From: Caldicellulosiruptor kronotskyensis 2002
GTDB lineage: Bacteria > Bacillota > Thermoanaerobacteria > Caldicellulosiruptorales > Caldicellulosiruptoraceae
DNA: 64,000 nt
NCBI RefSeq assembly: GCF_000166775.1
Contig: NC_014720.1
Location: 831,501 to 895,500 of the forward strand
Reading direction: 5' to 3'
The position numbers and the translations under genes are program-made. Positions 5,825-57,297 of this stretch are shown here, one piece after another. Positions within the stretch are counted from its first letter, which is position 1, and every line of letters begins with the position of its first letter. The notes beneath the pieces are model-generated. The model saw nothing but the letters and a program-made list of their open reading frames with translations. It was not told the origin of the DNA and made no database searches.

Positions 5825-5885
5825 GCAACTAAAAGAAAGGTCTATTTGCCCCAAACAAACAGTAAAGTGATTGGGAGTTGATGTC

Positions 5886-6372: not shown

Positions 6373-6387
6373 AAAGGAGAAAGTAAA

Positions 6388-7233
6388 ATGTTATGCCCAA
6401 AATGCAAAAATGGACTTGTTGTAGAAGACAAAAACTACAAATGTCCTTCTTGCCAAATCTCCCTGCCAGTAGCTTTTTATGGCTACGAGCTAAAGCAAGA
6501 GGATATAGACAAGCTTGTATTAGAAGGTGTGAGCGATGAAATTGAGTTTTTCTCAAAAACAAAAAAGAAAAAGTTCAAGGCAAAACTTGTGTATAAAAAT
6601 GGCAAAGTAGATTTTGAATTTTGTTCTAACAAAGAAAATGAGGGGAAAATAGAAGAAGAAAGAGAAAAAGAAAATGATACAATTTGCATTTTTCTAAATT
6701 CCCTCTCAAGCGGGGTTGTAAGAGTATTTAAAATGGATGGGGGTAAAAAGGAAGAGAAGATTTATGATTTTGGCACAAAGGCAACAAGATATTCTCATGC
6801 TCTTTCATTAATTGCGATTTTGCCTTTAGTTCCGAACGATAAAAAATTAAGAATAATCTCTGATGATATTGCTTTTGTAAAGTACGCTCTTGGTGAAGCA
6901 ACACCAAGAGATAGAAATATTAGAACTGGAATCTATGTGCTCTTGCAGGAGCTTAAAAACTACACATGGAGTTTGGAACTCAGTATGAAAAAACTGAGGC
7001 TAAAAGGTGGAAATAGCAAGAAGCTTTCTAAAAACCTTTTTCCGTACGTTAGTGTAAAGAAGGCAGAGGAAGAAGAAAGGATAATAGTAGAGATAGAAAA
7101 CTGCAATCTGGCAGTTGAGGAGCACTTTTTAGAGTATATGCAAAAAGCGGTAAAACTAAAGCTTGGCAAATACATTGTACCAAAAGCACTGAATGAAAAA
7201 TTGAATATGTGGCAAGAGGCTGCAAAAAACTAA
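6388..7233 (+). CDS. Zinc-ribbon protein of unknown function
   Basis: 281 residues. An N-terminal zinc ribbon is formed by CPKC (about 2-5) and CPSC (about 18-21). A Glu/Lys-rich linker is followed by a C-terminal half with the segment 'KKLRIISDDIAFVKYALGE', which faintly resembles an RNase H-like strand-helix unit; this is too weak to assign. It sits 15 bp after the HTH gene with AAAGGAGAAAG and is co-transcribed. Confidence 0.6.
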   Translation: MLCPKCKNGLVVEDKNYKCPSCQISLPVAFYGYELKQEDIDKLVLEGVSDEIEFFSKTKKKKFKAKLVYKNGKVDFEFCSNKENEGKIEEEREKENDTICIFLNSLSSGVVRVFKMDGGKKEEKIYDFGTKATRYSHALSLIAILPLVPNDKKLRIISDDIAFVKYALGEATPRDRNIRTGIYVLLQELKNYTWSLELSMKKLRLKGGNSKKLSKNLFPYVSVKKAEEEERIIVEIENCNLAVEEHFLEYMQKAVKLKLGKYIVPKALNEKLNMWQEAAKN

Positions 7234-7327
7234 ACTTTTGTTCTTCACCAGAATATGATAAAATTAAGATAAAAGTAAAAGCGGCTGCCCCCCTCTTAAG
7301 TAAAACTAACAAGAAGGGGAGTAAAAA

Positions 7328-8059
7328 ATGGAGATGAGTCAAATGGAAAATGAAAGGGAAAGAAGAAAAGACAAAGTTAGAGTTTACATCAGCCCCACCA
7401 GTATCGACCTTTTAAGGATTGAATTTACCTCTCATCTTCAAGATCTCAAGCGTGAAATCTCAGAAGTCAGGACAGAATTTGATACAAAACTCAAGACTTT
7501 GGAAGTTAACATCAAAAGTGAATTTAACCAGAAAATTGGTGAACTTTCAAATCAGGTTGCAAACCTGCAAAAAGAAACTGTTTATCAAATCACGGGTTTG
7601 AGAAGCGATACAACAACAGAACTGAGCAATACCAAACAAGAGAGCACAAAAGAGTTTTCAGGTGTCAGAAAAGAGATAGCTGACGTAAAAAACGAAATTG
7701 CAGATTTCAAGCAGGAAACAGCCAAGGAGTTTGCAAGTGTAAGAAAAGAAATAACAGATCTGAAAAATGAGTTTATTCAGTTTAGAGAAGAAACCACAAA
7801 AGAGTTTGCCAATATAAGAAATGAGTTTGCACAGTTCAAGGAAGAAACAGCAAGAGAGTTTGCCAATGTGAGAAAAGAGATAACCGACTTGAGAAATGAG
7901 CTTATACAATTCAAAGAAGAAACAGCAATAGAATTTGCAGCTATCAGGAATGAATTCGCAGACATAAAGAATACATTTAGATGGAATACAATAGGCATTA
8001 TCGCAGCACTTCTAACAGGGTTTGCAGGAATTATCACTGCAATAGTCCTAAATAAATAA
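7328..8059 (+). CDS. Coiled-coil protein with C-terminal membrane anchor
   Basis: 243 residues. Residues about 20-215 form a continuous coiled coil built of near-repeats such as 'KEFANIRNEFAQFKEET' and 'KEITDLKNELIQFKEET'. A single membrane helix (about 218-240) follows. The layout matches DUF1640-type tail-anchored coiled coils. The repeated units differ by a few substitutions, so the gene probably grew by internal duplication. GGGGAG (7316-7321) precedes ATG 7328. Confidence 0.7.
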   Translation: MEMSQMENERERRKDKVRVYISPTSIDLLRIEFTSHLQDLKREISEVRTEFDTKLKTLEVNIKSEFNQKIGELSNQVANLQKETVYQITGLRSDTTTELSNTKQESTKEFSGVRKEIADVKNEIADFKQETAKEFASVRKEITDLKNEFIQFREETTKEFANIRNEFAQFKEETAREFANVRKEITDLRNELIQFKEETAIEFAAIRNEFADIKNTFRWNTIGIIAALLTGFAGIITAIVLNK

Positions 8060-8063
8060 TCCT

Positions 8064-8093
8064 AAAAAGGTGGGCTTGAACCCACCTTTTTTG
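8064..8093 (+). terminator. Intrinsic terminator
   Basis: AAAAGGTGGG and CCCACCTTTT form a perfect stem around CTTGAA, followed by a T run. It closes the coiled-coil gene transcript. Confidence 0.9.
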
Positions 8094-8122
8094 TTCTATG
8101 AACGGCAATGTTACAAATAATT

Positions 8123-8174
8123 TATACTCATAAGTATACATTATGTTGACAAAATCACTGTTTTGTGATACAAT
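8123..8174 (+). promoter_or_regulatory. Promoter with two palindromes
   Basis: TTGACA (8146-8151), 17 bp, TACAAT (8169-8174). One palindrome, TATACT-cata-AGTATA (8123-8138), lies just upstream of the -35. A second, ATCAC-tgtttt-GTGAT (8154-8169), fills the spacer. Both are typical operator positions, and the promoter drives the 70-residue gene and the recombinase. Confidence 0.7.
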
Positions 8175-8255
8175 AACATCAGAAAAAACATAAAATAAAA
8201 CTCAAAATTTTTTCAACATAATGTTTTTTGAGAAAATAAAAAGGGGGGAATAATC

Positions 8256-8468
8256 ATGTTCAAGAGAGGAGTTAAAAATCCACCCAAGCCTGAAGTAATG
8301 CTTCAGGAGCTCAAAAAAGAGCTTCACAGACTCAGAAAACTCTATAACGAAGCTTTTACCCACTTTTACAGAACTGGTGACTATGAGTTTGTAAAAAAAG
8401 TCGATGAGAAATACTATGAAATTCTAAAGGCATATGTTATGTACAAAGATTACCTCTTTAAAAAGTGA
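8256..8468 (+). CDS. Small helical protein upstream of the recombinase
   Basis: 70 residues, very basic and predicted fully helical, with an amphipathic 'LQELKKELHRLRKLYNEAF' segment. No family is recognised. It has a strong AAAGGGGGG ribosome site and is followed after 13 bp by the tyrosine recombinase. Small basic proteins in this position often act as excisionase or accessory factors, but nothing in the sequence proves this. Confidence 0.6.
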   Translation: MFKRGVKNPPKPEVMLQELKKELHRLRKLYNEAFTHFYRTGDYEFVKKVDEKYYEILKAYVMYKDYLFKK

Positions 8469-8481
8469 GGCTGGAAATAAA

Positions 8482-9342
8482 ATGCTGAAAGAATTTGAAG
8501 ACTATCTAAAAACTCAGGACTTTACAGAAAACACAATAAAAAGTTATACCAAGGATGTTGAGCTTTTCATGCGCTGGTATGTTGATACTACTGGTCAGGA
8601 GTTTTTACCAGAGAATTTGACAGAGTTTGACCTTGTTGAGTACAAATCATACCTTCTGCGCAAAAACCACAAACCAAGTACAGTAAACCGAAGTATTATA
8701 TCTCTAAGAAAATTTGTGCATTTTCTACTGGACAGAGGATTGCTTAATAAAGACATATCAACAAGACTAAAACAGGTAAAAGACACAACAAGAAATCTCT
8801 CCCCAGTAGTTTTAGACAAAAAAGATATATACAAGTTCCGTCGCACTGTACATCAATTTGGAAAGACAAGGGATGTCGCTTTTGTAGAGCTTCTACTCAA
8901 TACAGGAATGAGAATATCAGAAGCTATAAATCTCAAACTTGAAGATGTTGAGATATCAGAGAGAAAAGGTAAAGTAAAAATCTGGGGCAAAGGCAGAAGC
9001 TATAGAGAAGTGCCTTTAAACTCCGATGCAAGAAAATACCTATCGGAATATCTGAAAAAGCGGCCTTACTCAGAAACAAACTATCTTTTTGTTACTTCAA
9101 CGGGCAAAAAACTGACGCGCAACAGTGCCTATAAAATCATACAAAAGTATGCCAAACTTGCCGGGCTTTGTTTACATCCACACATGCTCAGGCATTTCTT
9201 TGCACAAACGTTGATTGATAAGGGTTTGAATATCTACGATGTTCAACAGCTGCTGGGACACCAAAGAATAGAAACAACTTTGAGATATAAAAAACCAAAT
9301 ACAAAGCTTCAGGAAGAAATGGTGGAAAACTTGTTAGAATAG
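8482..9342 (+). CDS. Tyrosine recombinase/integrase, XerC/D-like
   Basis: 286 residues. A SAM-like N-terminal core-binding domain (about 1-85) precedes the catalytic domain with Arg144 ('TGMRISEA'), Lys170 ('GKGRSY'), His234 and Arg237 ('HPHMLRH'), His260 ('LLGHQ') and nucleophile Tyr269 ('TLRYKK'). All six active-site residues are present, so it should be active. It is the obvious candidate for integration and excision of the surrounding element, or for resolving element dimers. ATG 8482 is chosen; a longer in-frame extension to 8434 would overlap the upstream gene. Confidence 0.9.
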   Translation: MLKEFEDYLKTQDFTENTIKSYTKDVELFMRWYVDTTGQEFLPENLTEFDLVEYKSYLLRKNHKPSTVNRSIISLRKFVHFLLDRGLLNKDISTRLKQVKDTTRNLSPVVLDKKDIYKFRRTVHQFGKTRDVAFVELLLNTGMRISEAINLKLEDVEISERKGKVKIWGKGRSYREVPLNSDARKYLSEYLKKRPYSETNYLFVTSTGKKLTRNSAYKIIQKYAKLAGLCLHPHMLRHFFAQTLIDKGLNIYDVQQLLGHQRIETTLRYKKPNTKLQEEMVENLLE

Positions 9343-32104: not shown

Positions 32105-32251
32105 CTTTCACTCCTAAAAAACAACTTTAGTTTAATTATAAATTTCTTCAAAATCAAATGTCAATAGAATTTTAAAGATGGCTTTTCATAACAAAAACAA
32201 AGTAGTAAAATATTAAAAACAGCATTTTTGCGAAGGAGGAAATACATTTTA

Positions 32252-33058
32252 ATGAAGATTAGCTTTTCAACAGTAGGATGTCCCAACTTTACCTGGGATG
32301 AGATCTTAGCTGCTGCAAAAGATTTTGGATATGACGGTATTGAACTGAGAGGACTTGGAGATGAACTTGAAGTATATAGAGCAGAACCTTTTTCTCCTGA
32401 GAACTTGCCATCGACAAAAAAGAGATTAAAAGAACTGAATTTAGAGATTTCATGTTTGGCAACCTCATGTTATATATTTGATAAATCTTACCAGGAAAAT
32501 ACATTAGAGTCTGCAAAAGCGCACATTGAACTTGCAAAGGATCTTTCTTGCAAATACATAAGAGTTTTGGGAGACAGATGGATAACACCTGGGGAGGATG
32601 TCGATAGAGAATTTGTAAAAGACATGCTTTGCAATTTGTGCGACATGGCAAAGGAGTATGGTGTTGACGTTTTAATTGAGACAAATGGTGTGTGGGCAGA
32701 ATCAAAAAGGCTTGCTGATTTGCTTGAAAAGGTGCCGTATAAAAATGTTGGTGTTGTGTGGGACATTCACCATCCTTTCAGGTTTTTTGAGGAGGATGTT
32801 GAGAAAACCTTTAGCAATTTGAAAGAGTATATAAAACATGTTCATGTAAAAGACTCAAAAATTGAAAATGGCAAGCTTGTGTTTAAAATGATAGGCGAGG
32901 GTGATGTGCCTATTGAAAAGGTGATAAATCTTCTTTTGCGGCAAGGTTACAGCGGTTATATTTCTTTTGAATGGGTAAAAAGATGGTTTTCTGACCTTGA
33001 AGAGCCGGGGATTGTGTTTTTGGAGTTTATAGATAAGATTAAGAAAATAGTAAAATAA
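32252..33058 (+). CDS. Sugar phosphate isomerase/epimerase (xylose isomerase-like TIM barrel)
   Basis: 268 residues of the AP-endonuclease-2 superfamily. 'FGYDGIELRG', 'YIRVLGDRW', 'LIETNGVWA' (metal Glu), 'VVWDIHHPFR' (Asp and His) and 'YISFEWVKRW' (Glu) are the metal-site strands of a sugar or inositol epimerase. The exact substrate cannot be told. ATG 32252 follows AAGGAGGAA. Confidence 0.85.
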   Translation: MKISFSTVGCPNFTWDEILAAAKDFGYDGIELRGLGDELEVYRAEPFSPENLPSTKKRLKELNLEISCLATSCYIFDKSYQENTLESAKAHIELAKDLSCKYIRVLGDRWITPGEDVDREFVKDMLCNLCDMAKEYGVDVLIETNGVWAESKRLADLLEKVPYKNVGVVWDIHHPFRFFEEDVEKTFSNLKEYIKHVHVKDSKIENGKLVFKMIGEGDVPIEKVINLLLRQGYSGYISFEWVKRWFSDLEEPGIVFLEFIDKIKKIVK

Positions 33059-33062
33059 AAAA

Positions 33063-33120
33063 TAAAAGCCTCCTTACAAAAGCCCAAAAATAAAGGCTTT
33101 AAAAAGGAGGTTTTTGTTTT
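33063..33120 (+). terminator. Intrinsic terminator
   Basis: AAGCCTCCTT pairs with AAGGAGGTTT, with an inner AAAGCC/GGCTTT hairpin, followed by TTGTTTT. Confidence 0.8.
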
Positions 33121-33962
33121 AGGTTAATTTCTGAAGTGTATTTTACTTTTAAAAAAGCAAACAGGTTTTAAATAAAAGTGTTAAAAGATTTAATAAAACA
33201 AAATTGAAAAAATTACCCAAATTTTAGTAAATTATCAGGAAGATTGTGCTTACATCTTTTTGCTTAGAAAGTTACTTTAAAAATTTAAGAAAATTAAAGA
33301 AAGATTAAGATATTAAGAGAAAAAACAAGTTTATCTTAAAAAATCAGCAATTATTGAGTAAAAAAAAAAAAACGACTTTGACACGAGAATAAAAAAAAAA
33401 TAGAATAAAGCTAAACTGAATTGAAGAAATGGAAATTTACATATTTACAGTATTGAATTATAATAAATAGAACTTCGCTACGCTTGTAGGCGATAAAATG
33501 TAAATTAATGAAAAAAAGCTTCTATTATTTAGAATAGCACAGTGGGGAAGATTTGACAAGAGCTTTATATTTCTTTTCGTAACGAAAATAATAAAATTGA
33601 AAAATTCAATGATTGAGTGTTATCGCAAATTACCTCATTTTTATTTTCAATTTTTAATTCTTCTATTTCCATATAAGCATTCATTGATTGCGGTAAAGCA
33701 ATCACCCAAATAGTTTTTTTAGTCAGTGATAAAAATCTTAACAACAATTCTTGACACCATGTGGAGAAAATATATTTTTTATCGACAATCCATTTTACTT
33801 TTGCTTTCTTCTCATATGATTCTTTTACTGATAGTTGAATAAATGTGTACAAATAAAGATTAATGGTCAGCAGGAAGATTTGCAATTTTAGCAGTATTTA
33901 TAATTCTAAGTACTTTAGGTTTGTCAACAAATAATTATTTGGTGAGGAAAGGAGAGATTTTT
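33121..33962. other. Gene-poor AT-rich stretch upstream of the RiPP cluster
   Basis: About 840 bp with very high A content and homopolymer runs. The only clear signal is a promoter, TTGACA (33378-33383), 17 bp, TAGAAT (33401-33406), giving a leader of roughly 550 nt. A 106-codon minus-strand frame at 33565-33885 has no good ribosome site or recognisable motif and may be a relic. Confidence 0.6.
33378..33406 (+). promoter_or_regulatory. Putative promoter of the RiPP cluster
   Basis: TTGACA, 17 bp, TAGAAT; the only consensus-like promoter in the 900 bp before the first biosynthetic gene. Confidence 0.55.
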
Positions 33963-35003
33963 GTGAATTGTAATGTACCTAAACCGTTAATAATGTCAAT
34001 TGATGTTACCTACAAGTGTACTATGAGGTGTTTACATTGTTTCAACGGAAGTAATGAAAATGAATTAGAATCAGAATTAACAGATGAAGAATTACTTTAT
34101 TTAGCAGATCAGATTATAGATATAATGCCCAATGTGATTTGTTTTTGTGGTGGTGAACCACTTATTAGAAGAGAAATTCTCTATTTGTGTTGTGAAAAGA
34201 TAGTCAAGGGAACTAATGGATATACAAAAGTGAATATAGTTACAAATGGTGAATTAGTAAATAATGAGGTAGCAAGAAATTTACGGAAAGCCGGATTTAA
34301 TCTTATTCAGGTTAGCCTTGATGGTGCAAAACCCGAAACACATGATTGGCTCCGAAATAAGATAGGAAGTTTTAACAAGGCTGTCAATGCTATAAAATGT
34401 CTTGTGGAAGCTGGGTTATACGTGGGTGTTGCTTTTACACCAACTTTAAGAAATATTCCAGAAATCGATGAAGCGATAAAATTATGCGAGCAATTAGGTG
34501 TTTGTGAATTTCGCGTTCAGCCTCTAATGGTAATGGGAAGAGCGAAGAGAAATTTAAATGGGTATATTCCAACCTATAGAGATTATCAAATTCTTGCAAC
34601 AAAGCTAAAATGGTTACAATTGCAACAAATAGCAAAGAAAGGAATGAATGTAGAATGGGGAGATCCGGTAGATCACCTTATAAGATCGAACTATAGAGAA
34701 AGTGGTTATAATCCATTTATAGGGATAGATGCATATGGATATTTGAGAATATCTCCTTATTTACCATTGACTTTTGGAAATATAAGAAGACATAGAATTT
34801 TAGAGTATTGGAATAGTGGTTTGTCAAATGTTTGGAATTTACCAATCGTTAAGTGGATTTCAAAGCAAATTAGAGCTACAGAAGATTTGGATCTTTCTTC
34901 TAAAGGATTTAAAGAGGTTTATTGGGAAAAGAGTGTAGATATTGACCTTATTGAAGATGATATTTCAGAAGTTAAGCCAGAACAATTTTTTGCAAAAAAT
35001 TAA
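33963..35003 (+). CDS. Radical SAM maturase 1 of the RiPP cluster
   Basis: 346 residues. Cys19, Cys23 and Cys26 ('KCTMRCLHC') bind the radical SAM iron-sulfur cluster; 'CFCGGEPLIRREI' is the SAM-binding GGEP motif; 'VSLDGAKPETHDWLRN' is also typical. The C-terminal part resembles a SPASM/twitch region ('YGYLRISPYLPLTFGNIRRH') but has lost the usual cysteines. It probably installs cross-links or epimerisations on the precursor at 37768. GTG 33963 with AAAGGAGAG is chosen over the upstream TTG. Confidence 0.85.
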   Translation: MNCNVPKPLIMSIDVTYKCTMRCLHCFNGSNENELESELTDEELLYLADQIIDIMPNVICFCGGEPLIRREILYLCCEKIVKGTNGYTKVNIVTNGELVNNEVARNLRKAGFNLIQVSLDGAKPETHDWLRNKIGSFNKAVNAIKCLVEAGLYVGVAFTPTLRNIPEIDEAIKLCEQLGVCEFRVQPLMVMGRAKRNLNGYIPTYRDYQILATKLKWLQLQQIAKKGMNVEWGDPVDHLIRSNYRESGYNPFIGIDAYGYLRISPYLPLTFGNIRRHRILEYWNSGLSNVWNLPIVKWISKQIRATEDLDLSSKGFKEVYWEKSVDIDLIEDDISEVKPEQFFAKN

Positions 35004-35028
35004 TAATTTTTGGAGGGACAAAATAAAG

Positions 35029-35526
35029 ATGAAAATTCTAGAAAGAATTCTTACTGATTCTGATATCAATGAAATAATTGAGATTCTCAGGAGAGTAAAC
35101 TTTGAAGAGAATTTTAATTATTTGAATCCTTTCATAAGCAAACACACATTTAATGAACTCATATTAAGAGAAAGTTTTTTCAATTATACAATTTTTGTAT
35201 ATGGTGAGTTTATTGACGAAAAACTGAGTAAAATTGCATATTATCAATTACCTGATGTAGCAACTTTGTCAAAGAGTGCGACATTGTATTTGTTAGGATG
35301 TGAGAATACAAGCACACCAATAAATATGTTTTTATATAATTCAATCTTGAACTTGACAAAGGTATTTCCTGATATAAGTAAAATTAAAATCAATATAAAA
35401 AGTAATATGCCAAATTTAAAATCGTTGTTAAAATTGATGAATGATATTGGATTTAAGAAAGAAATTGAATTAAAAGAAGAATTCGACGATGCGGACTTAT
35501 TAATATATTCGTATTTTATAAATTGA
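35029..35526 (+). CDS. RiPP cluster protein, possibly GNAT-like
   Basis: 165 residues. The C-terminal half ('ISKIKINIKSNMPNLKSLLKLMNDIGFKKEIELKEEF') has the pattern of an acetyltransferase motif-B strand-helix unit, but motif A is not clear, so the assignment is tentative. GGAGGG precedes ATG 35029, and the gene ends just before the start of the second radical SAM gene. It may modify or bind the precursor peptide. Confidence 0.6.
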   Translation: MKILERILTDSDINEIIEILRRVNFEENFNYLNPFISKHTFNELILRESFFNYTIFVYGEFIDEKLSKIAYYQLPDVATLSKSATLYLLGCENTSTPINMFLYNSILNLTKVFPDISKIKINIKSNMPNLKSLLKLMNDIGFKKEIELKEEFDDADLLIYSYFIN

Positions 35527-35537
35527 AGGTGACAAGT

Positions 35538-36914
35538 ATGGATGGAAAAATACAAATTACAAATATCAGATGGGAAATAGAACCAAAATGTAATCTAAAT
35601 TGTCGTCATTGTTTTGTAGGATCAAAGTTAGATAAATATAAGGAAATGGATTTTGAGACAGCTAAAGTTGTTGTTGATATATTAAGTGATTGCGGAATAA
35701 AAAAAATAATTTTTTCATCGAAAGAACCTTTAATGTATAAAGATATTGATAAGCTTATTTCTTATTGTAATGTGAAAGGAATACATACGGAATTGGTCAC
35801 TAATGGAACATTATTACAAAATACTTTGTTTGCTGAAAAAATTATATCTAGTGGTGTTGGGACTATCAGTATTAGCGTAGAAGGTATTACGAAAGATTCA
35901 AACGATTACATTAGGGGAGAAGGAAACTTAGATCAGGTATTGAGAGCATTAGGTAATCTAAAAAATATAATGGAATATAAAAGGCAAATTATCATTGGAA
36001 TTCAAATGTCACTAAATAGAAAGAATAAAAATGAAGCTGCTCACGTACCTGAATTTTTTAATCATCTGCCAATTGATATTCTTGTGATTGGTGGACTTTC
36101 TTTAGATGGGAATGCAAAAAACAATAGTGATTTATTACTATCTCCAGAGGAATTCATACAAATATGGGATGTAATATTAGTAAATTATTTAAAGTTAAAA
36201 GATAAAAAATATTATCTTACATCTAAATCTTTATTTCCAATTGAGGCAGTGTATTATAATTGTATGTTTGGCTCTGACTTTTGCCCAGTAATACCAAAAT
36301 GTGGTATATTAGAAGAACACTACTCTCTTTTGCCCAATGGCGATATAGTCCCCTGTGTAGCTCTTTTAGACAAGATAAATGATGTTGGAGAATTTCCACG
36401 TATAAATATTCTTGATAAAATGTTGAATGAAGAGAAAATCAACAAGTTGGAAAACTTTAAAATTCAGTTAGAAAATTTGATAAAAGAAAATAGGCCTCAT
36501 GTTTGTCGTGAATGTTATTACAAAGAGGATTGTAGGCCTTGTCCAGTAAACATTATACAACAGCAATTTAAGGAAGAAATCTCAATAAGGTGTTCAAGAG
36601 CTAAGGAAAAAATAAAAGAAATATTTAATTTGATTAGAAGACATTTTGATGAGTATTATCTTTCAATTAGAGATAATACATTGTTGACGGTTCAAAATCA
36701 AAAAGTATCTTTAACAAGGTATTATGAACAAGGTGGAGTATACAGAAAAGAATATGAACTTGAGCCATTGCAGATTAATGCTTTGCAGAAAATTTTTAAT
36801 TTTAAAGAGATAAGCTTAAAGGAATTGTTATATGATTTTAAAAATTACGAGATGTTACTAAATTTTATTGAGCCGTTAGTGTTTGATAATTTTATTATGG
36901 TAAGGAGGAGCTAA
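35538..36914 (+). CDS. Radical SAM/SPASM maturase 2 of the RiPP cluster
   Basis: 458 residues. Cys18, Cys22 and Cys25 ('KCNLNCRHC') form the radical SAM site. The GGEP motif is replaced by 'SSKEPLMYKDI'. The SPASM domain has cysteines in 'PKCGILEEHYSLLPNGDIVPCVALL' and 'HVCRECYYKEDCRPCPVN' for auxiliary clusters. A C-terminal extension of about 90 residues resembles no family I know. ATG 35538 with AAGGTG is preferred over TTG 35523. SPASM enzymes act on ribosomal peptides, for example in thioether or C-C cross-linking. Confidence 0.87.
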   Translation: MDGKIQITNIRWEIEPKCNLNCRHCFVGSKLDKYKEMDFETAKVVVDILSDCGIKKIIFSSKEPLMYKDIDKLISYCNVKGIHTELVTNGTLLQNTLFAEKIISSGVGTISISVEGITKDSNDYIRGEGNLDQVLRALGNLKNIMEYKRQIIIGIQMSLNRKNKNEAAHVPEFFNHLPIDILVIGGLSLDGNAKNNSDLLLSPEEFIQIWDVILVNYLKLKDKKYYLTSKSLFPIEAVYYNCMFGSDFCPVIPKCGILEEHYSLLPNGDIVPCVALLDKINDVGEFPRINILDKMLNEEKINKLENFKIQLENLIKENRPHVCRECYYKEDCRPCPVNIIQQQFKEEISIRCSRAKEKIKEIFNLIRRHFDEYYLSIRDNTLLTVQNQKVSLTRYYEQGGVYRKEYELEPLQINALQKIFNFKEISLKELLYDFKNYEMLLNFIEPLVFDNFIMVRRS

Positions 36915-36916
36915 AG

Positions 36917-37762
36917 ATGATAGATATTATGAAAAGTATTCCGAAGTTTGATGAGCAGAATCTTCTTTATAAAAGGTTAGAACAAGATGGTAGTCTTACA
37001 TTTTTGAGCAAAAAGCATCCTGAAACTCAGCAAATGAAGCTAAATGAAACAGCAAGATTTATTTTAGACAAATGTGATGGTTATCATACTATAGGTGAAA
37101 TTGTGAACGAAATATTAAAAGAATATAAAGGTGCGACCACAGAAAGAGTGTTAGAAGATGTTATTAACATATTGCACAGTTTATGGAGATTTGGTCTAAT
37201 AAGATGGCTCAATGAAAATCCTTTACTTGATTTTTTTTATCAAGAAAGATATGAAAATTATGTTTTTAAAATGTTATATGAAGATGAAGTAATAGATGTA
37301 TTGCAAATATTAAAAGAGTTACCACACTTTGTTAATCCTTATATTGACGAAAATATATCTTATGCTGAAATGTTACTGCGGCAAAAAGTGTTTATGTTTA
37401 TTGAAATGTTTTTTTCGTTAACTGCTGAAGGAAAAAATGTTTTGACTCTTTCACTTTCTCCTCTTTTGAGAATTAAAGTTAATTCTGCTGAAGTTGGATA
37501 TCTTTATTGTGAAGATTATACGATTGAAGGTGAAATAATTAGGAAATTTCTCCAATGGTGTGTTAAAAAAATGGGTGAAATTAATTATCTCCTGCGTGAT
37601 ATTAGAAGATTATTCTTTTATTTAAAAGATGATAATGAAATACTATTTGAAAAACTTCAAGATTGGAGTTTTAAATATGCTGGTACCTTAAAGGAAGAGC
37701 TTGGCCGACATTCTCCTTATATTAGAATCTTTTACTTTGATATAAAAAAGGAAAGGGGGTGA
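36917..37762 (+). CDS. PqqD-domain (RiPP recognition element) fusion protein
   Basis: 281 residues. Residues about 10-95 form a PqqD-like winged helix: 'MKLNETARFILDKCDGYHTIGEIVNEIL' and 'VINILHSLWRFGLIRW'. This domain binds the leader peptide and hands it to the radical SAM enzymes. The remaining 185 residues are of unknown type and may be an acyltransferase-like or scaffold domain. It overlaps the precursor gene region by a few bases and is preceded by AGGAGGAG. Confidence 0.8.
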   Translation: MIDIMKSIPKFDEQNLLYKRLEQDGSLTFLSKKHPETQQMKLNETARFILDKCDGYHTIGEIVNEILKEYKGATTERVLEDVINILHSLWRFGLIRWLNENPLLDFFYQERYENYVFKMLYEDEVIDVLQILKELPHFVNPYIDENISYAEMLLRQKVFMFIEMFFSLTAEGKNVLTLSLSPLLRIKVNSAEVGYLYCEDYTIEGEIIRKFLQWCVKKMGEINYLLRDIRRLFFYLKDDNEILFEKLQDWSFKYAGTLKEELGRHSPYIRIFYFDIKKERG

Positions 37763-37767
37763 AAATC

Positions 37768-37977
37768 ATGAATAAAATATATGAACCACCTACAATTTCG
37801 CCAGTTTCAGATGTTCAGCATACAATGACTTGTGTAGTATCTGTGCCAGTTTTAGCAGTATATGCTGGCTTTGTGGCAGTTTGGTTTACTGTTGTTGGGC
37901 TACACAATAATATAGGAGCAGTTGTACATGTAGCGGGTGTTGCACTTAATTATGTTACTGCAGGATACGATTGTTAA
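37768..37977 (+). CDS. RiPP precursor peptide
   Basis: 69 residues. The leader 'NKIYEPPTISPVSD' has the lysine-tyrosine-glutamate-proline style seen in radical SAM RiPP leaders. The core is strikingly hydrophobic and Val/Ala/Gly-rich with Cys22, Thr, His and aromatic residues, and ends with Tyr-Asp-Cys69. It has the strongest ribosome site of the cluster (GGGGGTG) right after the PqqD gene. Cys-rich sactipeptide features are absent, so the modification is probably not a multi-thioether; C-C or ether cross-links, or a single Cys22-Cys69 link, are possible. No known precursor family is recognised. Confidence 0.75.
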   Translation: MNKIYEPPTISPVSDVQHTMTCVVSVPVLAVYAGFVAVWFTVVGLHNNIGAVVHVAGVALNYVTAGYDC

Positions 37978-38137
37978 TAGTACAAAGGAAACAAAAGGAG
38001 AATGTCGGCATTAAGTTTTTTGTATTACCTAATGTCTTCGTTTGAGAAGTATTTTTAGGATTTTTATTTTAAAAATACTAAGTAAAGTTTCTGTAATTAA
38101 TTGTTAGAAATCAAGACTATAGGAGGAACAAGTTAGA

Positions 38138-38680
38138 ATGAATTATATAAAAATAAAACCTTCATTTTCATGGGGATGGTTATTCCCTTTCCATGTTTTC
38201 TTGTTGTCATTTTTTGTGTTTCTATCATGCGTATACCTACCTATAGTAAAGGGATTACCTCAAAAGACTTATATTTTTATCTCAATATTAATAGCGTCTA
38301 TATTAAATTGTTTAATTGCAACTTTAGGAATACTATATACTATTTTTTTCTTCACCATGAATTATAAATTAACTCCAGAGCAGTTAATATTAAAATGTGG
38401 ATGGCATAAAAAAACAATTTATTATAACCAAATAGAAAAAGTAACTATTGAAAATTTAAAAGCCAATTTTCTTGCAGATACTCAAAGTGTTTTTAAAGTG
38501 CCAGGCTATGCAATAGGTAAAGTGTATTATTTTGGTAAGGGTTATATATACATGTGTGCAACAAGAGTAAACAAGAATATTTTGGTAATCTATTTAAAAA
38601 ACGGTGAAAAGGTGGGTATTACTCCAAAGAATTTAGAAGAATTTAAAAATATTTTAATTGAAAAGGCAGGTTTAAAATAG
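38138..38680 (+). CDS. Membrane protein with PH-like domain
   Basis: 180 residues. Two membrane helices (about 11-32 and 40-68) precede a C-terminal beta-rich part ('YKLTPEQLILKCGWHKKTIYYNQIEKVTIE', 'VYYFGKGYIYMCATRVNKNILVIYLKNGEKVGITPKN') that resembles bacterial PH-like (bPH) domains. In bacteriocin clusters such two-helix bPH proteins often have a self-protection role; this is inferred. It begins 161 bp after the precursor. Confidence 0.7.
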   Translation: MNYIKIKPSFSWGWLFPFHVFLLSFFVFLSCVYLPIVKGLPQKTYIFISILIASILNCLIATLGILYTIFFFTMNYKLTPEQLILKCGWHKKTIYYNQIEKVTIENLKANFLADTQSVFKVPGYAIGKVYYFGKGYIYMCATRVNKNILVIYLKNGEKVGITPKNLEEFKNILIEKAGLK

Positions 38681-38690
38681 GGAGGAATAA

Positions 38691-39427
38691 GGGTGTATTC
38701 CATTTATATTGCAGCTTTTATCTCTACATTAATGGCTTTTGTATTTTGGGGTGGGTTTATTTACTATTACTTTTTTGAAAAGCTTGATAAATATATTTTT
38801 TTAGGTATAATAAGTGCTTTGAGTTGTCCAATTGTAAATTTATTAGTAAAAGCTCCATTACTTAAAATTTTAAAAGAGGTTTTTAATATTCATGGAAATA
38901 CAACTTTAAAAGCTCCAATTGGATATCTAATAATTTTCATATTTCTTCCAAGTATAACAGAAGAAACAATAAAAATTCTACCTTCTTTTTTTCTAAAACT
39001 TTATAATGTTGATTCAAAAACTTTACTAAGGATTGCCTATATTTTGGGTTTTGGATTTGGTATTGGCGAGATATGGTATATTGCCCATGGTATTACAAAA
39101 AATCCTTCTATGGCAGGATATCCGTTTTTTTTATTTGGTGGTTTTGCAACTGAGAGGTTTTTTGGTGTTATAATTCATGCTGGACTTACAGTTGTAGCAC
39201 TAACTGGCTTGAAGAAAGATATAAAAAGTTTTTCTTTTTTAAATTTAGTTTTTGCTATTTTGTTACATACAGCAGTAAACATAAGTGCTTTTACGTATCA
39301 GCTGAAGATTCGCATAATAAATGAGAAAATGGATGAATTTTTATTAATGTTTTGGCCTGCAATATTTGTAATTATATTTGTAAATATTATACTTAATAAA
39401 ATACGAACTTTGGAGGGATACTTTTGA
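38691..39427 (+). CDS. PrsW-like intramembrane metalloprotease
   Basis: About 244 residues with 7-8 membrane helices. The catalytic pattern is visible: 'ITEETIKILP' (EExxK-like, about 94-103), an Ile-Gly-Glu motif 'GIGEIWY' around 121-127, His in 'GVIIHAGLT' and His in 'LLHTAVN'. In RiPP clusters, membrane proteases of this or the CPBP type can remove leader peptides or confer immunity. Start: GTG within 'GGGTGTATTCC', following GGGAGGAATAAG. Confidence 0.72.
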
Positions 39428-39990
39428 GAAATGTAAGTTACAATTATATAATCTATAATCAAGGACATAAAATTGGTGAACAATTTATTAACCTCAAGTT
39501 TCAAAATGATCAACGTATATTTTTTGACTCAAAGATTGAAACTCTTTTAGGTATCGAAGAAACAAGGTTAATTATAAATGGGAATAATTATTTGCCTCTT
39601 TCAGCTCATACTAAAAAAGAATATGGACAGGATAAAAAAATAATTAATATTACTTATACGACGCCAGGCAAGATTTTAGTAGAAGAGAATTATTATAAAG
39701 AAAAGTGTTTGTGGTTTACAGGTAAGGTATATGATAAGCTTCAGATCTTATTTTTATTAAAGAATTTATACGAAAATTTAACTTCATATAATATGAAAAG
39801 ATTGTATATATTTATTCCAGAAATGTTTGCTATTGGTCAAATTATAGTCAAAACATCGAGTGCAAATAATTGCAAATTATTAAAATATTATCTCTGGCAA
39901 CCTTATTACACAATTTGCGAATATAGTAAGGATGATTACTCTTTAATTTACTATACTGATGGGAAAACAGTTATGGAAAGAGTGAGTTGA
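39424..39990 (+). CDS. Hypothetical RiPP-cluster protein
   Basis: 188 residues, beta-rich with no signal peptide and no recognised motif. The succession 'FDSKIETLLGIEETRLIINGNNYLPLSAHTKK' and 'NITYTTPGKILVEENY' resembles a beta-barrel of the DUF3108 or lipoprotein-carrier type, but weakly. It overlaps both neighbours by a few bases, so it is tightly coupled to the protease and the exporter. Confidence 0.55.
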   Translation: MRNVSYNYIIYNQGHKIGEQFINLKFQNDQRIFFDSKIETLLGIEETRLIINGNNYLPLSAHTKKEYGQDKKIINITYTTPGKILVEENYYKEKCLWFTGKVYDKLQILFLLKNLYENLTSYNMKRLYIFIPEMFAIGQIIVKTSSANNCKLLKYYLWQPYYTICEYSKDDYSLIYYTDGKTVMERVS

Positions 39991-39992
39991 AT

Positions 39993-41684
39993 ATGAGATG
40001 TATTGGAGAAAAATTGGCTAAAAAAGTTTTTGTTGAATATTTAAAAACTATGTTTCCTTATGTTAAGGGATATAGTTTTCAGATCTTTTTAGTATTGTTG
40101 CTTTCATCTTTATTAGCAATATCGAATTTAATATCCCCAACAATAAGTAAAATGCTTGTTGATAGAATATTTGCTGCTCACGACAAGAATTTATTAATAA
40201 AATTGTTAATTTTAATGAGCTTAGCATTTGTTATAATTGCAACTATAAACCTTTTAAATAGCTATTTAATGGCAAGATTAACTGCTTTTTTAAATTACAG
40301 AATCAAAATGGATTTTTTTAATAAACTTCAACACACATCATTGGTATTTCATATGTCTAAAAAAAGTGGTGAAATCCAGTACAGGATGTTTTATGATACC
40401 GAATTTATGGTAGATTATTTTTTGAAATTGATTATTAATATGCCAATGTATACAATTTGGGTAGTATTGATTTTGTATTTAATGTATAAGTGGTCACCTA
40501 TTTTAATGTCATTAGTAGTAATAGTATTTATGTTCCAGGTCATACTTATAGTGAGGTTTAGAGAACCAGTAAAGAAAGCAGTATTTAATAAAAAAAATAT
40601 AGAACAAAATACTGTTTCAGAAATTAACGAGCATTTCAATGCAATAGAGTTAATTAAAACTTTAAGTTTAGAAAAAATAGCTTTTGAAAGGGTAAGCCAC
40701 AATATGAAGAATCTTATTGATGCTATCGTTAAATTAGTATTTATTCAATCAATGTATCAAACAGGAACCAGTTTGTTGAACCAATTGTGGTCATTTGGTA
40801 CTTTATGGTTTGGGGCAAATCTTGTATTTTCAGGTAAGATAACTGTTGGAACCTTTATGGGATTTTATATACTTGCAGGACTTTTATATCAACCAATCGT
40901 GTCAATGACCGGTATTGTGTTAAGCTGCCAAGAATTAAAAGTTGCTTATCTAAGATTTGAAGAGTATTATAAAAGTCCGTTTGTTTTAATAGAAAAAGGT
41001 GGTAATAAGCCATTTAGATTTGAGGAAATTTTAGAAATGCGAAATGTTTTTTTTGCTTATGAAAACAATTATCCAGTTCTTAATAATGTGAATCTAATTC
41101 TTAAACCAGGATGTATTGTTGCATTAACAGGAAAGAGTGGTTCAGGTAAAAGCACATTTGCAAGAATTGTTTCGAGATTACTCAAACCTCAAGTGGGGGA
41201 AATTTTGATAGACGGAGTTAATATCGAAGAAATCAACATAGAAGACTTCAGAAAAAATGTTGGATTTTTACTACAAAATGCATTTATAATTAATGGTACA
41301 TTATATGAAAATGTAACCCTTGGAAATCACAATTACTCATTAGATGATGTAAAAAAAGTTATTGCTGAAGCTGGACTTACTGATTTAATTGCTAGAGATC
41401 CAAAGGGGCTAAATATGGATATTGGTATTCGCGGAGCACAAATATCCTTAGGTGAGGCTCAACGTATAGCACTTGCAAGAATATTACTAAGAAAACCTAA
41501 AATTGTAATATTAGATGAGCCGACATCTTTCCTTGATCCTGAAACAGAAGAAATAATTCTGAACTCAATCGTTAAATTAAAACAGAAAAACTCATTAATT
41601 CTTGTAATAACTCATAAAGCTTCTACGTTATCAATAGCAGATAAGATTTTAAGGTTTCAGAATGGAAGTATTGTAGAAATTTGA
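39993..41684 (+). CDS. ABC transporter, fused permease and ATPase (peptide exporter type)
   Basis: 563 residues. Six membrane helices (about 25-305) precede the ATPase: Walker A 'GKSGSGKST', Q-loop 'FLLQNAF', signature 'ISLGEAQ' (L-S-G-G-Q variant), Walker B 'IVILDEPTS' and H-loop 'ITHKAST'. There is no N-terminal C39 peptidase domain, so leader removal must be done by another protein, possibly the PrsW-like protease. It most likely exports the mature RiPP and gives immunity. ATG 39993 is preferred over TTG 39987. Confidence 0.9.
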   Translation: MRCIGEKLAKKVFVEYLKTMFPYVKGYSFQIFLVLLLSSLLAISNLISPTISKMLVDRIFAAHDKNLLIKLLILMSLAFVIIATINLLNSYLMARLTAFLNYRIKMDFFNKLQHTSLVFHMSKKSGEIQYRMFYDTEFMVDYFLKLIINMPMYTIWVVLILYLMYKWSPILMSLVVIVFMFQVILIVRFREPVKKAVFNKKNIEQNTVSEINEHFNAIELIKTLSLEKIAFERVSHNMKNLIDAIVKLVFIQSMYQTGTSLLNQLWSFGTLWFGANLVFSGKITVGTFMGFYILAGLLYQPIVSMTGIVLSCQELKVAYLRFEEYYKSPFVLIEKGGNKPFRFEEILEMRNVFFAYENNYPVLNNVNLILKPGCIVALTGKSGSGKSTFARIVSRLLKPQVGEILIDGVNIEEINIEDFRKNVGFLLQNAFIINGTLYENVTLGNHNYSLDDVKKVIAEAGLTDLIARDPKGLNMDIGIRGAQISLGEAQRIALARILLRKPKIVILDEPTSFLDPETEEIILNSIVKLKQKNSLILVITHKASTLSIADKILRFQNGSIVEI

Positions 41685-41696
41685 AGATGTAACTAA

Positions 41697-41737
41697 TCAA
41701 GGGGCTATCCATAACTTTTTTGGACAGCCCCTCTTGC
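41697..41737. terminator. Bidirectional terminator between RiPP cluster and lysC
   Basis: GGGGCTaTCC and GGAcAGCCCC form the stem; convergent genes end on both sides. Confidence 0.8.
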
Positions 41738-41742
41738 TTATT

Positions 41743-42972
41743 TTATTTCCCATTGCTGTTCAAAAGGTGAAGTTTGAACTTATCATGTATAGCTCTTACT
41801 GCTTTTTCAGCGTCCTTTTCGTCAATCAAGACTGATATCTTTATCTCGGATGTCGAAATCATCTCGATGTTGATACCTGCATCATAAAGAGCTTCAAACA
41901 TCATTGCAGCAACGCCTGGATTGTTGACCATTCCAGCACCAACTATAGAGACCTTTGCAACATTGTCAGCATATGTTATATCCTTTGCGCCAATTATGTG
42001 CAGATTCTTTGTCAAAACATCAAGTGTCTGCTTTAAGTTGCTCTTTGATACTGTAAACGATATATCCTTTGTTTTTTCTCTTCCAATTGACTGCAAAATT
42101 ATATCAACATTTATATTTTCTTTTGCCAAAAGTGAAAATATCTGAAATGCCTTGCCCGGAACATTTTCAACTCCAATCACTGCAACCCTTGCAATGTCCT
42201 TGTCACACGCAACACCGGATACTAAAAGCTTTTCCACCGAATTTACCTCCTTTACAATTGTTCCTTCATTGTCGTTGAAAGATGACCTAACAACAAGGGG
42301 AATATTGTATTTTTTTGCAAGCTCAACAGACCTGTTATGAAGTACCTTTGCTCCAAGTGTGGCAAGCTCTAACATCTCATCGTAGGAAATCTCTTTGAGC
42401 TTTGATGCGTTTGGAACAATTCTTGGGTCTGCTGTATAAACACCGTCAACATCTGTATATATTTCACATTTGTCAGCTTTCAAAGCTGCAGCCAGAGCTA
42501 CGGCTGTTGTATCAGAACCTCCACGCCCCAGCGTGGTTATATCGTCATACTTATTTATTCCCTGAAAACCTGCAACAACAACTATGTTCCTCTTATCAAG
42601 CTCTCTTTGGAGCCTTTCTGAGTCAATTTCAATGATTCTTGCATTTGAATAGTGGCTGTCTGTCTTTATTCCTGCCTGCCACCCGGTCAGCGAAATGACA
42701 GGATACCCAAGCTTTTCAATTGCCATTGCCATGAGTGCAATTGAAATCTGCTCACCTGTGGAAAGAAGCATATCCATCTCTCTTTTTGAAGGGTTTTCGT
42801 TTATCTCTTTTGCCTTTTCAATAAGCTCGTCTGTTGTGTCGCCTTGAGCTGAGACAACAACCACAACCTTGTTTCCTTTCTCATACTCGCTAATTGCCCG
42901 CCTTGCTGCCCGAAATATTCTTTCTTTGTCTGCAACAGATGTTCCACCATACTTTTGGACAACTATTCCCAA
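41743..42972 (-). CDS. lysC: Aspartate kinase
   Basis: 409 residues. It catalyses the first step of the aspartate pathway. 'VVQKYGGTSVADKERI' is the substrate-binding start; 'GRGGSDTTAVALAAAL' and 'EIYTDVDGVYTADPRIVP' complete the kinase site. Two ACT domains (about 265-400) provide feedback control. It starts at TTG 42972 with GGGAGG upstream; the longer frame adds 17 residues unlike the family. Last gene of the threonine operon. Confidence 0.93.
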   Translation of the reverse strand: MGIVVQKYGGTSVADKERIFRAARRAISEYEKGNKVVVVVSAQGDTTDELIEKAKEINENPSKREMDMLLSTGEQISIALMAMAIEKLGYPVISLTGWQAGIKTDSHYSNARIIEIDSERLQRELDKRNIVVVAGFQGINKYDDITTLGRGGSDTTAVALAAALKADKCEIYTDVDGVYTADPRIVPNASKLKEISYDEMLELATLGAKVLHNRSVELAKKYNIPLVVRSSFNDNEGTIVKEVNSVEKLLVSGVACDKDIARVAVIGVENVPGKAFQIFSLLAKENINVDIILQSIGREKTKDISFTVSKSNLKQTLDVLTKNLHIIGAKDITYADNVAKVSIVGAGMVNNPGVAAMMFEALYDAGINIEMISTSEIKISVLIDEKDAEKAVRAIHDKFKLHLLNSNGK

Positions 42973-43068
42973 GATATTTCCCTCCCATGTAAGTAATGTC
43001 AATGGTCTAAAATAAAATTTCACAAGACCATTTTGATACTATTATATTACACTTTTGAGTAGTTTGCT

Positions 43069-54907: not shown

Positions 54908-54960
54908 TTGTGCGAATATTGTGCGAAAAATCATTTTTTACAAAAGGGGTAGAGCACAAT

Positions 54961-56376
54961 TTGAAAATAACATATTTTTCTAACAGTCAAAAGTTTTTAT
55001 ATGATTTTCAGCATATAATAAGGGCATTTTACCCTGGTGCGGAGGTAAAATTTGGTCATGGCGGAGACATTCATCTTGAGGCGTATTTTGAAGAAATGAG
55101 AGTATTTTTAAAACTCCAAACACGGGATAAAACAATTCAAAAAGATTTTATTCTTGTGTATGATGAACACGAGTCAAAGAGGATATTTGGAAGAAACCTT
55201 TATGACCTTTTAAGACAGGAGACAAAAAAAGATCTTCCATGGGGGATCTTAACAGGAATAAGACCCACAAAGATTGTCTACCCCTTGTTGGAACAGGGAT
55301 TGAAAGAGGAAGAGATATACAAGTTCCTGCAAGAAGGATATTATATTTCTGATAAAAAATCAAAGCTTCTTTTAAGGGTTGCAAGGAATGAAATTAACAT
55401 TTTGAATAAACTTGAGCCTTCTTCAGCTTGTTTGTACATAGGTATTCCAATATGCCCGACTAAGTGTCTTTACTGTTCTTTTTCATGCCACGAGATGACA
55501 AGGCAGATAAAAAGTTTATTAGGAATGTATACAGATAGCATTATCTGTGAACTTGAAAAGACATATCAGAAAATAGATGAAAATAAAAATAGAATTGTTG
55601 CAATCTATTTTGGCGGTGGAAGTCCTGCAGTGTTAGGGATAGAAAATATAAAAAAGATTTTCACAAATCTGTTTGATAACCTTGAAAAAAACTGTATTCA
55701 AGAGATTACATTTGAAGCAGGAAGACCCGATACAATTAGCGAAGATTTATTGGAGTATTTAGCTGAGCTTAATCGATATTTAAATATCAGGCTTTGTATA
55801 AACCCTCAAACTTCGAATGACAACACTTTGAAAATAATAGGCAGGAATCACACATTTGAGGACATAAAAAAGGCATTTGCATTGACGCAGGAATATGGTT
55901 TTAATAATATAAACAGTGATGTGATTTTAGGGCTTCCTGGTGAGAATGAAAATGATTATAAAAAGACAATTGATGATGTTTTAAAACTTTCACCTGCTTC
56001 AATTACCGTTCACACACTTTCAATAAAAAGGGCAAGCCTTTTGAGATTCAAATGGAATGAATATAAATTTATGGATGAAGAGACTGTAAACAACCTTCTT
56101 GACTGGACACAATATGTTTTAGAAGAACACGGTTATATCCCATATTACATGTATAGGCAGAAAAATATGATAGGAAATTTTGAGAATGTTGGATACTGCA
56201 AAAGGGGATTTGAAGGGCTTTACAATGTGATGATAATGCAGGAAAAACATAATATCTATGCATGTGGCGCAAAAGCTGTGTCAAAGTTTGTGTATGAAGG
56301 AGACAGGATAGAAAGAGTTTTTAATCCTGCTGACATAAAGCTTTACATTTCAAGGATTCTGAATGTTGATATTTGA
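54961..56376 (+). CDS. hemZ: Oxygen-independent coproporphyrinogen III oxidase-like, HemZ type
   Basis: 471 residues. The radical SAM site is 'IGIPICPTKCLYCSFSCHE' (CxxxCxxC). 'AIYFGGGSPAVL' is the GGGTP-like motif, and 'SDVILGLPGENENDYKKTIDDVL' is the HemN/HemZ block. An N-terminal extension of about 150 residues distinguishes HemZ from HemN. Its real substrate in clostridia is uncertain. TTG 54961 follows AAAGGGG; the longer frame is rejected. Confidence 0.88.
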   Translation: MKITYFSNSQKFLYDFQHIIRAFYPGAEVKFGHGGDIHLEAYFEEMRVFLKLQTRDKTIQKDFILVYDEHESKRIFGRNLYDLLRQETKKDLPWGILTGIRPTKIVYPLLEQGLKEEEIYKFLQEGYYISDKKSKLLLRVARNEINILNKLEPSSACLYIGIPICPTKCLYCSFSCHEMTRQIKSLLGMYTDSIICELEKTYQKIDENKNRIVAIYFGGGSPAVLGIENIKKIFTNLFDNLEKNCIQEITFEAGRPDTISEDLLEYLAELNRYLNIRLCINPQTSNDNTLKIIGRNHTFEDIKKAFALTQEYGFNNINSDVILGLPGENENDYKKTIDDVLKLSPASITVHTLSIKRASLLRFKWNEYKFMDEETVNNLLDWTQYVLEEHGYIPYYMYRQKNMIGNFENVGYCKRGFEGLYNVMIMQEKHNIYACGAKAVSKFVYEGDRIERVFNPADIKLYISRILNVDI

Positions 56377-56394
56377 AAAAAGGGGAGTGACTTT

Positions 56395-57297
56395 TTGCTT
56401 TCCCAACAGCTTTTAAAAAGCTGCAGAATATGTCCGCGCGAATGTGGTGTAAATCGTATTGAAGGTGAGAGTGGTTTTTGTAAAATTGCAGGTGGTATAA
56501 AGGTTGCCAAAGCTTTTTTGCATTTTTGGGAAGAACCATGTATCTCGGGCAAAAACGGGTCTGGCACAGTATTTTTTTCTGGGTGCAATATGGGCTGTGT
56601 ATTTTGCCAAAATTACGAGATAAGCCAGATGAGGTTTGGAGCATTCATAGATGTAAATAAACTTGCTACTATCTTTTTAAACCTTCAGGCAAAAAGTGCT
56701 CATAATATTAACCTTGTGACGCCAACCATTTATGTTCCATATATAATTGAGGCAATTGATATTGCAAGGAAAAATGGTCTTAGAGTTCCCATTGTGTACA
56801 ACACATCTTCGTATGAAAAACCAGAGACCATAGAGCTCTTGAAAGGATATGTGGATATATTCTTGCCAGACCTTAAATATTTTGATGATGAAATTGCCCA
56901 AAAATACTCCAATGCTCCTCAGTATTTTGAATTTGCCTCAAAGTCAATATTAAAAATGTTTGAACTTGTTGGAGATGTTGTAATAGAAAATGGTATAATG
57001 AAAAGAGGTGTTATAATTCGCCATTTGGTACTTCCAATGCACGCAAATGATTCTATAAAGGTTTTGAGCTGGATTAAGGATAACTTGAAAGGCAAAGTTA
57101 TGCTGAGCCTTATGAGCCAGTATTATCCAATGTACAAAGCAAAGGAATTCAAAGAAATTTCAAGAAGGATTACAACAAGAGAATATCAGAAGGTTGTCAA
57201 CTTTGCGCTCGAAAATGGTCTTGACTATGGATACATTCAGGACAAAGAAGTGGCAACAGACAAATACATCTCCGAATTTGACTTAGAAGACATATGA
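56395..57297 (+). CDS. PflA-family radical SAM protein
   Basis: 300 residues. 'CRICPRECGVNRIEGESGFCKI' is a cysteine-rich N-terminal segment; the radical SAM site is 'SGCNMGCVFCQNYEIS'. 'HNINLVTPTIYVPYIIEAI' and 'VDIFLPDLKYFDDEIAQKYSNAP' fit the PflA-like/AmmeMemoRadiSam-related branch, whose members activate glycyl radical enzymes or act in membrane lipid chemistry. The TTG start follows AAAGGGGAG. Confidence 0.85.
   Translation: MLSQQLLKSCRICPRECGVNRIEGESGFCKIAGGIKVAKAFLHFWEEPCISGKNGSGTVFFSGCNMGCVFCQNYEISQMRFGAFIDVNKLATIFLNLQAKSAHNINLVTPTIYVPYIIEAIDIARKNGLRVPIVYNTSSYEKPETIELLKGYVDIFLPDLKYFDDEIAQKYSNAPQYFEFASKSILKMFELVGDVVIENGIMKRGVIIRHLVLPMHANDSIKVLSWIKDNLKGKVMLSLMSQYYPMYKAKEFKEISRRITTREYQKVVNFALENGLDYGYIQDKEVATDKYISEFDLEDI

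Follow-up and report, generated by a model that had tools for sequence, protein, structure and literature searches.

A putative RiPP bacteriocin island built on a recurrent radical SAM and PqqD-fusion gene set in Caldicellulosiruptor kronotskyensis

What do nine tightly packed genes of Caldicellulosiruptor kronotskyensis 2002, two of them for radical S-adenosylmethionine (rSAM) enzymes, make from a small hydrophobic peptide encoded in their midst? The genes lie at positions 33,963 to 41,684 of a 64,000-nucleotide stretch of the chromosome (NC_014720.1, positions 831,501 to 895,500; here, the window). An earlier note, made from the letters alone, had proposed that they form a cluster for a ribosomally synthesised and post-translationally modified peptide (RiPP) of a class it did not recognise. 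This is what we found: of the NCBIfam matches listed for the cluster enzymes none attains its cut-off, the precursor has no match in Pfam or NCBIfam, and there are nine related loci, with YxxP leaders. The first rSAM gene (rSAM1) and the gene for a PqqD domain fused to a further domain are a recurrent gene set, present at nine loci beyond the window, and the cluster that carries them here is an accessory, insertable island. We consider it probable, on sequence grounds, that this is a RiPP bacteriocin island encoding a membrane-active peptide.

A leader-bearing short precursor, modifying enzymes and a recognition element stand together in one cluster, the modification itself being predicted. 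The RiPP family is unnamed in the libraries searched, and is a variant of the radical SAM kind of RiPP rather than a new kind. We found no description of such a peptide family in the open-licence literature of PubMed Central, a search that could miss accounts in subscription journals. All nine open reading frames (ORFs) lie in the order first claimed, with domains as expected from the ORF list and Pfam. The features, all on the forward strand except the last, are as follows.

33963..35003, +, rSAM1, radical SAM enzyme with motifs CxxxCxxC, CFCGGEP, EWGDPxDH and SPYLPxxxGNIRxH; GTG start inferred
35029..35526, +, stand-alone GNAT-like protein, by sequence comparison a homologue of the C-domain of the PqqD fusion
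35532..36914, +, rSAM2, with SPASM-type cysteine pattern CX2CX5CX2C, extended at the C-terminus; start at 35523 or 35532
36917..37762, +, PqqD (RiPP recognition element, RRE) fused to a GNAT-like domain (Pfam, BLAST)
37768..37977, +, precursor peptide of 69 aa, with leader 1-21 (YxxP) and core 22-69 (ORF reading)
38048..38079, +, 14-bp A/T-rich hairpin in the gap between precursor and bPH genes, possibly an attenuator or RNA stabiliser (single ViennaRNA fold, without shuffle control)
38138..38680, +, bPH_5 membrane protein, candidate immunity protein (Pfam)
38693..39427, +, YhfC-type intramembrane protease, a candidate for leader removal or for a second role in immunity (Pfam; EExxK stretch)
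39424..39990, +, 188-aa protein of unknown family (no informative match)
39987..41684, +, ABC exporter of permease-ATPase type, lacking a peptidase domain (Pfam, NCBIfam)
33069..41718, no strand, extent of the inserted block against the empty site in genome G001; ends good to a few tens of bases

The membrane protein matches bPH_5 at 1.9e-20, as had been proposed. The protease, first called PrsW-like, is assigned by Pfam to YhfC instead (1.8e-8). The exporter matches ABC_membrane and ABC_tran and has no Peptidase_C39 match in Pfam, in keeping with the original description, and the eighth gene, of 188 aa, keeps its label of unknown, having no informative match in Pfam, NCBIfam or further searches. 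Neither it nor the stand-alone GNAT-like protein has a Pfam match. Between 33000 and 41800 we found no terminator-like site, and promoter predictions were at chance level.

The precursor and the recurrent gene set

The precursor runs from an ATG at 37768, with AAAGGGGG just upstream, to a stop codon ending at 37977. Its 69 residues include just two cysteines, at 22 and 69, and its hydrophobic, Val/Ala/Gly-rich character was confirmed by ORF reading and composition count: V+A+G make up 0.53 of the residues after position 20, the highest value among the 60 ATG-started ORFs of 50-90 aa in the window (the next being 0.31). A homologue stands at the same place in another genome of the genus, G002, with the same two cysteine positions. 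The composition and this homologue together argue that the precursor is not a chance ORF.

We used a profile of rSAM1 to look for the same arrangement elsewhere. At E up to 1e-40 it picked out relatives in 7 of the 37 genomes from the class, and at E up to 1e-50 in 3 of the 398 from the phylum; a broader profile found them in four of the 398 (1e-65) and in 2 of 97 genomes in the class of G333 (1e-50). A tblastn search of a plasmid collection with rSAM1 gave a locus of Collinsella aerofaciens and 12 weaker rSAMs. Ten loci were read: the window, L019 (from G002), L020/L058 (from G012, of a sister genus), L028, L029, L030, L031, L033, L039 (the Collinsella locus) and L055 (from G126). In all ten, rSAM1 has as a direct or close neighbour a PqqD protein that carries a further domain at its C-terminus, truncated by the contig end in G012, and both proteins are homologous across loci by BLAST. 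One of the profile matches, L056 of G489, was rejected as a member of the family, having an SGGEP motif and a PqqD protein without the extra domain. Two scans of genome contigs with rSAM2 found no relatives, neither rSAM2 nor the L029 precursor had a tblastn match in the plasmid collection, and viral scans returned nothing, or unrelated weak rSAMs.

Nine precursors were found, in eight loci (L055 yielded none, and the G012 locus is cut short), and all nine carry YxxP within residues 2-8, a count for which two starts were re-set (in Collinsella upstream of the RefSeq start, in L029 by two codons). The Collinsella small ORF (L039 9042-9224) itself seems to have been given too distant a downstream start in RefSeq, since an upstream ATG adds the YxxP leader. 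Cores are hydrophobic, with a grand average of hydropathy of 0.47 to 1.57 in the eight precursors computed in frame. Two papers report that PqqD-type recognition elements target YxxP (PMC13381572, PMC12710340), and by analogy with lasso and LPP systems the PqqD domain would bind the leader and so present the precursor to the modifying proteins. Lasso peptides and LPP RiPPs share a YxxP leader with a PqqD-type RRE, but the nine genes here include, by Pfam, no lasso cyclase (asparagine-synthetase-like), B2 protease or LPP kinase. Nor do they include, by the same library, the DUF95/SpoIIM protein of circular bacteriocins.

Some of the related loci carry further genes. In L028 the intact cluster is immediately preceded by remnants of another PqqD/rSAM1 pair, now decayed (6144-6966), and transposase-like ORFs stand among the downstream genes; in L055 a methyltransferase-like gene, recognised by eye, follows the PqqD fusion (3683-5059).

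Two radical SAM enzymes and a PqqD fusion

The second enzyme, rSAM2, had been read as an rSAM/SPASM protein, and it does match PF04055 (8.4e-22) and, just under the cut-off, SPASM (4e-4), with SPASM-like cysteines CX2CX5CX2C. Cysteine pairs spanning the core occur in the window, G002 and L028, which are the three precursor-bearing loci with rSAM2; L029, L030, L031, L033 and L039 have neither rSAM2 nor the core pair. This co-occurrence (3/3 vs 0/5; exact p=0.018, rising to 0.048 when the window and G002 are taken as one) is suggestive, in a small sample, of a link between rSAM2 and the cysteine pair. In the simplest case rSAM2 would make a thioether crosslink on Cys22/Cys69, to which we give an even chance. 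The significance of the presence or absence of rSAM2 together with the pair is that it amounts to a natural experiment for assigning each enzyme's reaction. In L033 (reverse complement, 7198-8550), just upstream of the precursor, there is a radical SAM protein with, by eye, a B12-binding-like N-terminus, a possible additional tailoring enzyme where rSAM2 is absent.

Because rSAM1 is also present in loci without core cysteines or rSAM2, it must there have a role that does not depend on the core cysteines. It would modify the hydrophobic core in all the related clusters. rSAM1 matches PF04055 (E=1.4e-24) and is without SPASM cysteines. It has two extra cysteines in the motif CxCGGE, invariant in all seven aligned rSAM1 proteins and found also in L055; they occur in none of the six GGE contexts found among 9 other radical SAM loci. 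In the part of PMC8326336 that treats them, proteusin epimerases have the SAM cluster only, need a conserved cysteine, and act on Val and Ile. The lack of auxiliary-cluster cysteines, the two invariant extra ones, the Val/Ala/Asn-rich substrates and the likeness to proteusin epimerases together make alpha-carbon epimerisation (L to D) our first guess at the reaction of rSAM1, by analogy and tentatively. The radical SAM epimerase RiPPs (proteusins and epipeptides) are alike in their hydrophobic Val/Ala/Asn-rich cores and in an rSAM with conserved extra cysteines and no auxiliary-cluster ones, but differ in their leaders: here there is a 21-aa YxxP leader, without Pfam or NCBIfam match, and a PqqD fusion, and no proteusin leader of the nitrile-hydratase-like or Nif11 type. 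YydG chains match the rSAM1 profile over residues 12-198 only (E=8.7e-7), and there is no epipeptide family among the best 25 of its 72 NCBIfam matches.

Another way to view the two enzymes is as the paired rSAMs of an atypical sactipeptide or ranthipeptide, which would install only thioethers from Cys22 and Cys69 with rSAM1 as a helper. The cluster resembles those of sactipeptides (SkfB, thuricin CD, StsB) in having an rSAM with an RRE and SPASM cysteines in rSAM2; the sactisynthase SkfB is the solved protein closest to the rSAM1 profile, and the co-occurrence of rSAM2 with the core pair would fit as well. Two-rSAM systems have a precedent in TrnC/TrnD of thuricin CD (PMC12093266). However, the five precursor-bearing loci that have rSAM1 but neither core cysteines nor rSAM2 imply another job for rSAM1 there, no NCBIfam sactisynthase cut-off is reached, and the precursor has just its two cysteines, at the ends of a long hydrophobic core. 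We regard this account as unlikely, though it is the best placed of the alternatives. To call the cluster unlike sactipeptides is right where rSAM1 and the relatives lacking core cysteines are concerned; rSAM2 may nonetheless make a Cys22/Cys69 thioether.

The PqqD fusion was correctly recognised at the outset (PF05402, 1.7e-13, plus an extra C-domain). That C-domain is homologous by BLAST to the stand-alone second gene (L031 vs window, E=1.1e-8; L030 vs window, 5.5e-8). The second gene and the C-domain are likely GNAT-like, judged from their sequences. The resemblance named in the earlier note is there, if weakly: among solved structures the profile matches MccE (E=0.019) and spermidine acetyltransferases (0.21 and 0.34), these being three of the five chains listed, and Acetyltransf_1 is matched by two of nine GNAT-like members, at best E=0.034. 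AlphaFold models of the GNAT-like protein and the PqqD fusion were too poor for use (predicted local distance difference test scores, pLDDT, of 43.6 and 34.2).

Comparison of the window with G002 suggests what the C-domain might do. For most of the cluster the DNA of the two agrees to 96-99%, with a divergent stretch from ~37250 to 38400. Within it, 37 of 39 changes in the PqqD fusion fall at residue 105 or beyond, 14 of 16 changes in the bPH protein fall in residues 1-81, and codons that change an amino acid number 22 of 48 aligned in the precursor core, against 4 of 21 in the leader. We read this as a core, a GNAT-like domain and a bPH membrane part that co-vary, and the C-domain may thus contact or tailor the core. 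Replacement of the whole stretch by recombination would be an equally good account of the divergence; the three parts still travel together. If the reading is true, a recognition element of this kind, in which a domain fused to PqqD changes together with the core, would be unusual.

Immunity genes and the nature of the product

The related loci offer a clue to what the peptide does. SdpI (PF13630) is found in L028, L029 and L033 and DUF1648 in L030; L031 has a protein 61% identical to the DUF1648 protein of L030, and a gene of L039 is annotated DUF1648, giving an SdpI/DUF1648 gene in six of the ten loci. L055 has a protein resembling (E=5.9e-5) one from an SDP operon that is annotated DUF3784. 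SdpI is rare, with 1, 3 and 2 matches in the three genomes checked, one in each being the cluster copy. As a passage of PMC6818787 has it, SdpI protects against SDP, a hydrophobic peptide of 42 residues that spans Cys141 to Ser182 and collapses the proton motive force. In the window the bPH_5 membrane protein would provide immunity, filling by comparison the slot that SdpI/DUF1648 has in the relatives. Leader removal, probably before Cys22, would fall to YhfC or to a host protease, and the ABC protein would export the peptide; YhfC is the sole protease recognised among the nine genes, and its EExxK stretch is presumably a protease motif.

The SDP/YIT cannibalism toxins of Bacillus subtilis (SdpABC/SdpI) are likewise short hydrophobic peptides, SDP starting with a cysteine; here too the hydrophobic core is variable among relatives. 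They differ in that SDP comes from a secreted pro-protein with SdpA/SdpB, whereas here there is a leader with rSAM and PqqD. One could suppose that the window encodes a true SdpC-family descendant whose core moved from the pro-protein to a RiPP leader. SdpI-type immunity in the relatives, the Cys-first hydrophobic SDP (in the same passage of PMC6818787) and a match of the L028 precursor to TIGR04032 (SdpC; E=0.033, over the toxin part) would agree with this. The match is far below cut-off and the only one among seven precursors scanned; the window precursor and the G000 (window) genome have no SdpC match, and the clusters read showed neither SdpA nor SdpB. In residue shuffles the window core scored z=-1.1 against SDP, and the best two of 35 pairs (z 4.9 and 3.7; p 0.0015 and 0.004, uncorrected for 35 tests) do not involve the window. 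Descent of the core from SDP is thus supported by neither the shuffles nor the hidden Markov model, and we think it very doubtful.

It is similarly improbable that the product is a signal or redox cofactor precursor and not a toxin: rSAM with PqqD is also the logic of pyrroloquinoline quinone (PQQ) and mycofactocin, and families of that type are among the weak NCBIfam matches, but the dedicated ABC exporter, the immunity-type membrane genes, a fast-changing core inside a nearly constant cluster and the patchy presence in the genus speak for a toxin.

Returning to a membrane-active bacteriocin, a fuller proposal is a family of epimerised (D/L) hydrophobic membrane peptides, a radical SAM counterpart of SDP. 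In it a one-cluster CxCGGE rSAM would flip residues, the PqqD-GNAT fusion would deliver a Val/Ala-rich core, an optional SPASM enzyme would tie the ends through the cysteines, and proteins of the SdpI group would give immunity, in at least the window's phylum and Collinsella. We put this forward as speculative, a shade less secure than the epimerisation it includes. Several observations weigh against the bacteriocin reading as a whole. The solved protein nearest to the rSAM1 profile is the sactisynthase SkfB (E=4.5e-29); the best NCBIfam matches of rSAM1 among those listed are heme-pathway-type rSAMs far under cut-off, and among listed matches rSAM1 falls outside known epimerase families. No acetyl-CoA loop could be recognised in the GNAT-like domain, though the pattern used failed on a true GNAT of the window as well. 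The window and G002 lack SdpI and have the bPH_5 protein instead, making the immunity link indirect here; no precursor was found in L055, and the G012 cluster is split or decayed. The gene set brings together radical SAM RiPPs and SdpI-guarded hydrophobic toxins, a link that we did not find in the open-licence literature.

The island in its genus

A block of ~8.65 kb, holding the nine genes, separates two genes that directly adjoin in 6 of the 11 other genomes of the genus (G001, G004, G005, G006, G009 and G010). One flank is an aspartokinase gene (41743-43023), the other a gene at 32228-33058 that by eye encodes a sugar-isomerase-like protein; alignment to the empty site of G001 places the block at ~33069-41718. 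G002 has the cluster; in the remaining four genomes the isomerase gene was not found within ~1.5 kb beside the aspartokinase gene. Apart from a match at E=0.25, which was disregarded, the precursor is clearly matched in two of 12 genomes, and full-length rSAM2 occurs in the window genome, G002 and sister-genus G012, of 13 genomes, so that by precursor and full-length rSAM2 the cluster is present in 2 of the 12 genomes of the genus. In G012 the cluster is spread over two contigs, and next to its bPH gene stand a transposase-like ORF and a truncated YhfC.

At its upstream end the block has ~830 bases without a convincing gene (33070-33900), 93% identical in G002. A GAF-like/LuxR-type regulator lies upstream in L020 (248-1057), L028 (5084-5869) and L030 (reverse complement, 5558-6343), with 52% identity between L020 and L028; it was not found in the window or G002, and a search of the window's upstream gap for a decayed copy found none. 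Genome-wide there are 35 radical SAM matches, and elsewhere in the window (54910-57297) stand two adjacent radical SAM genes, HemZ-type and PflA-type by eye, that are probably unrelated to the cluster.

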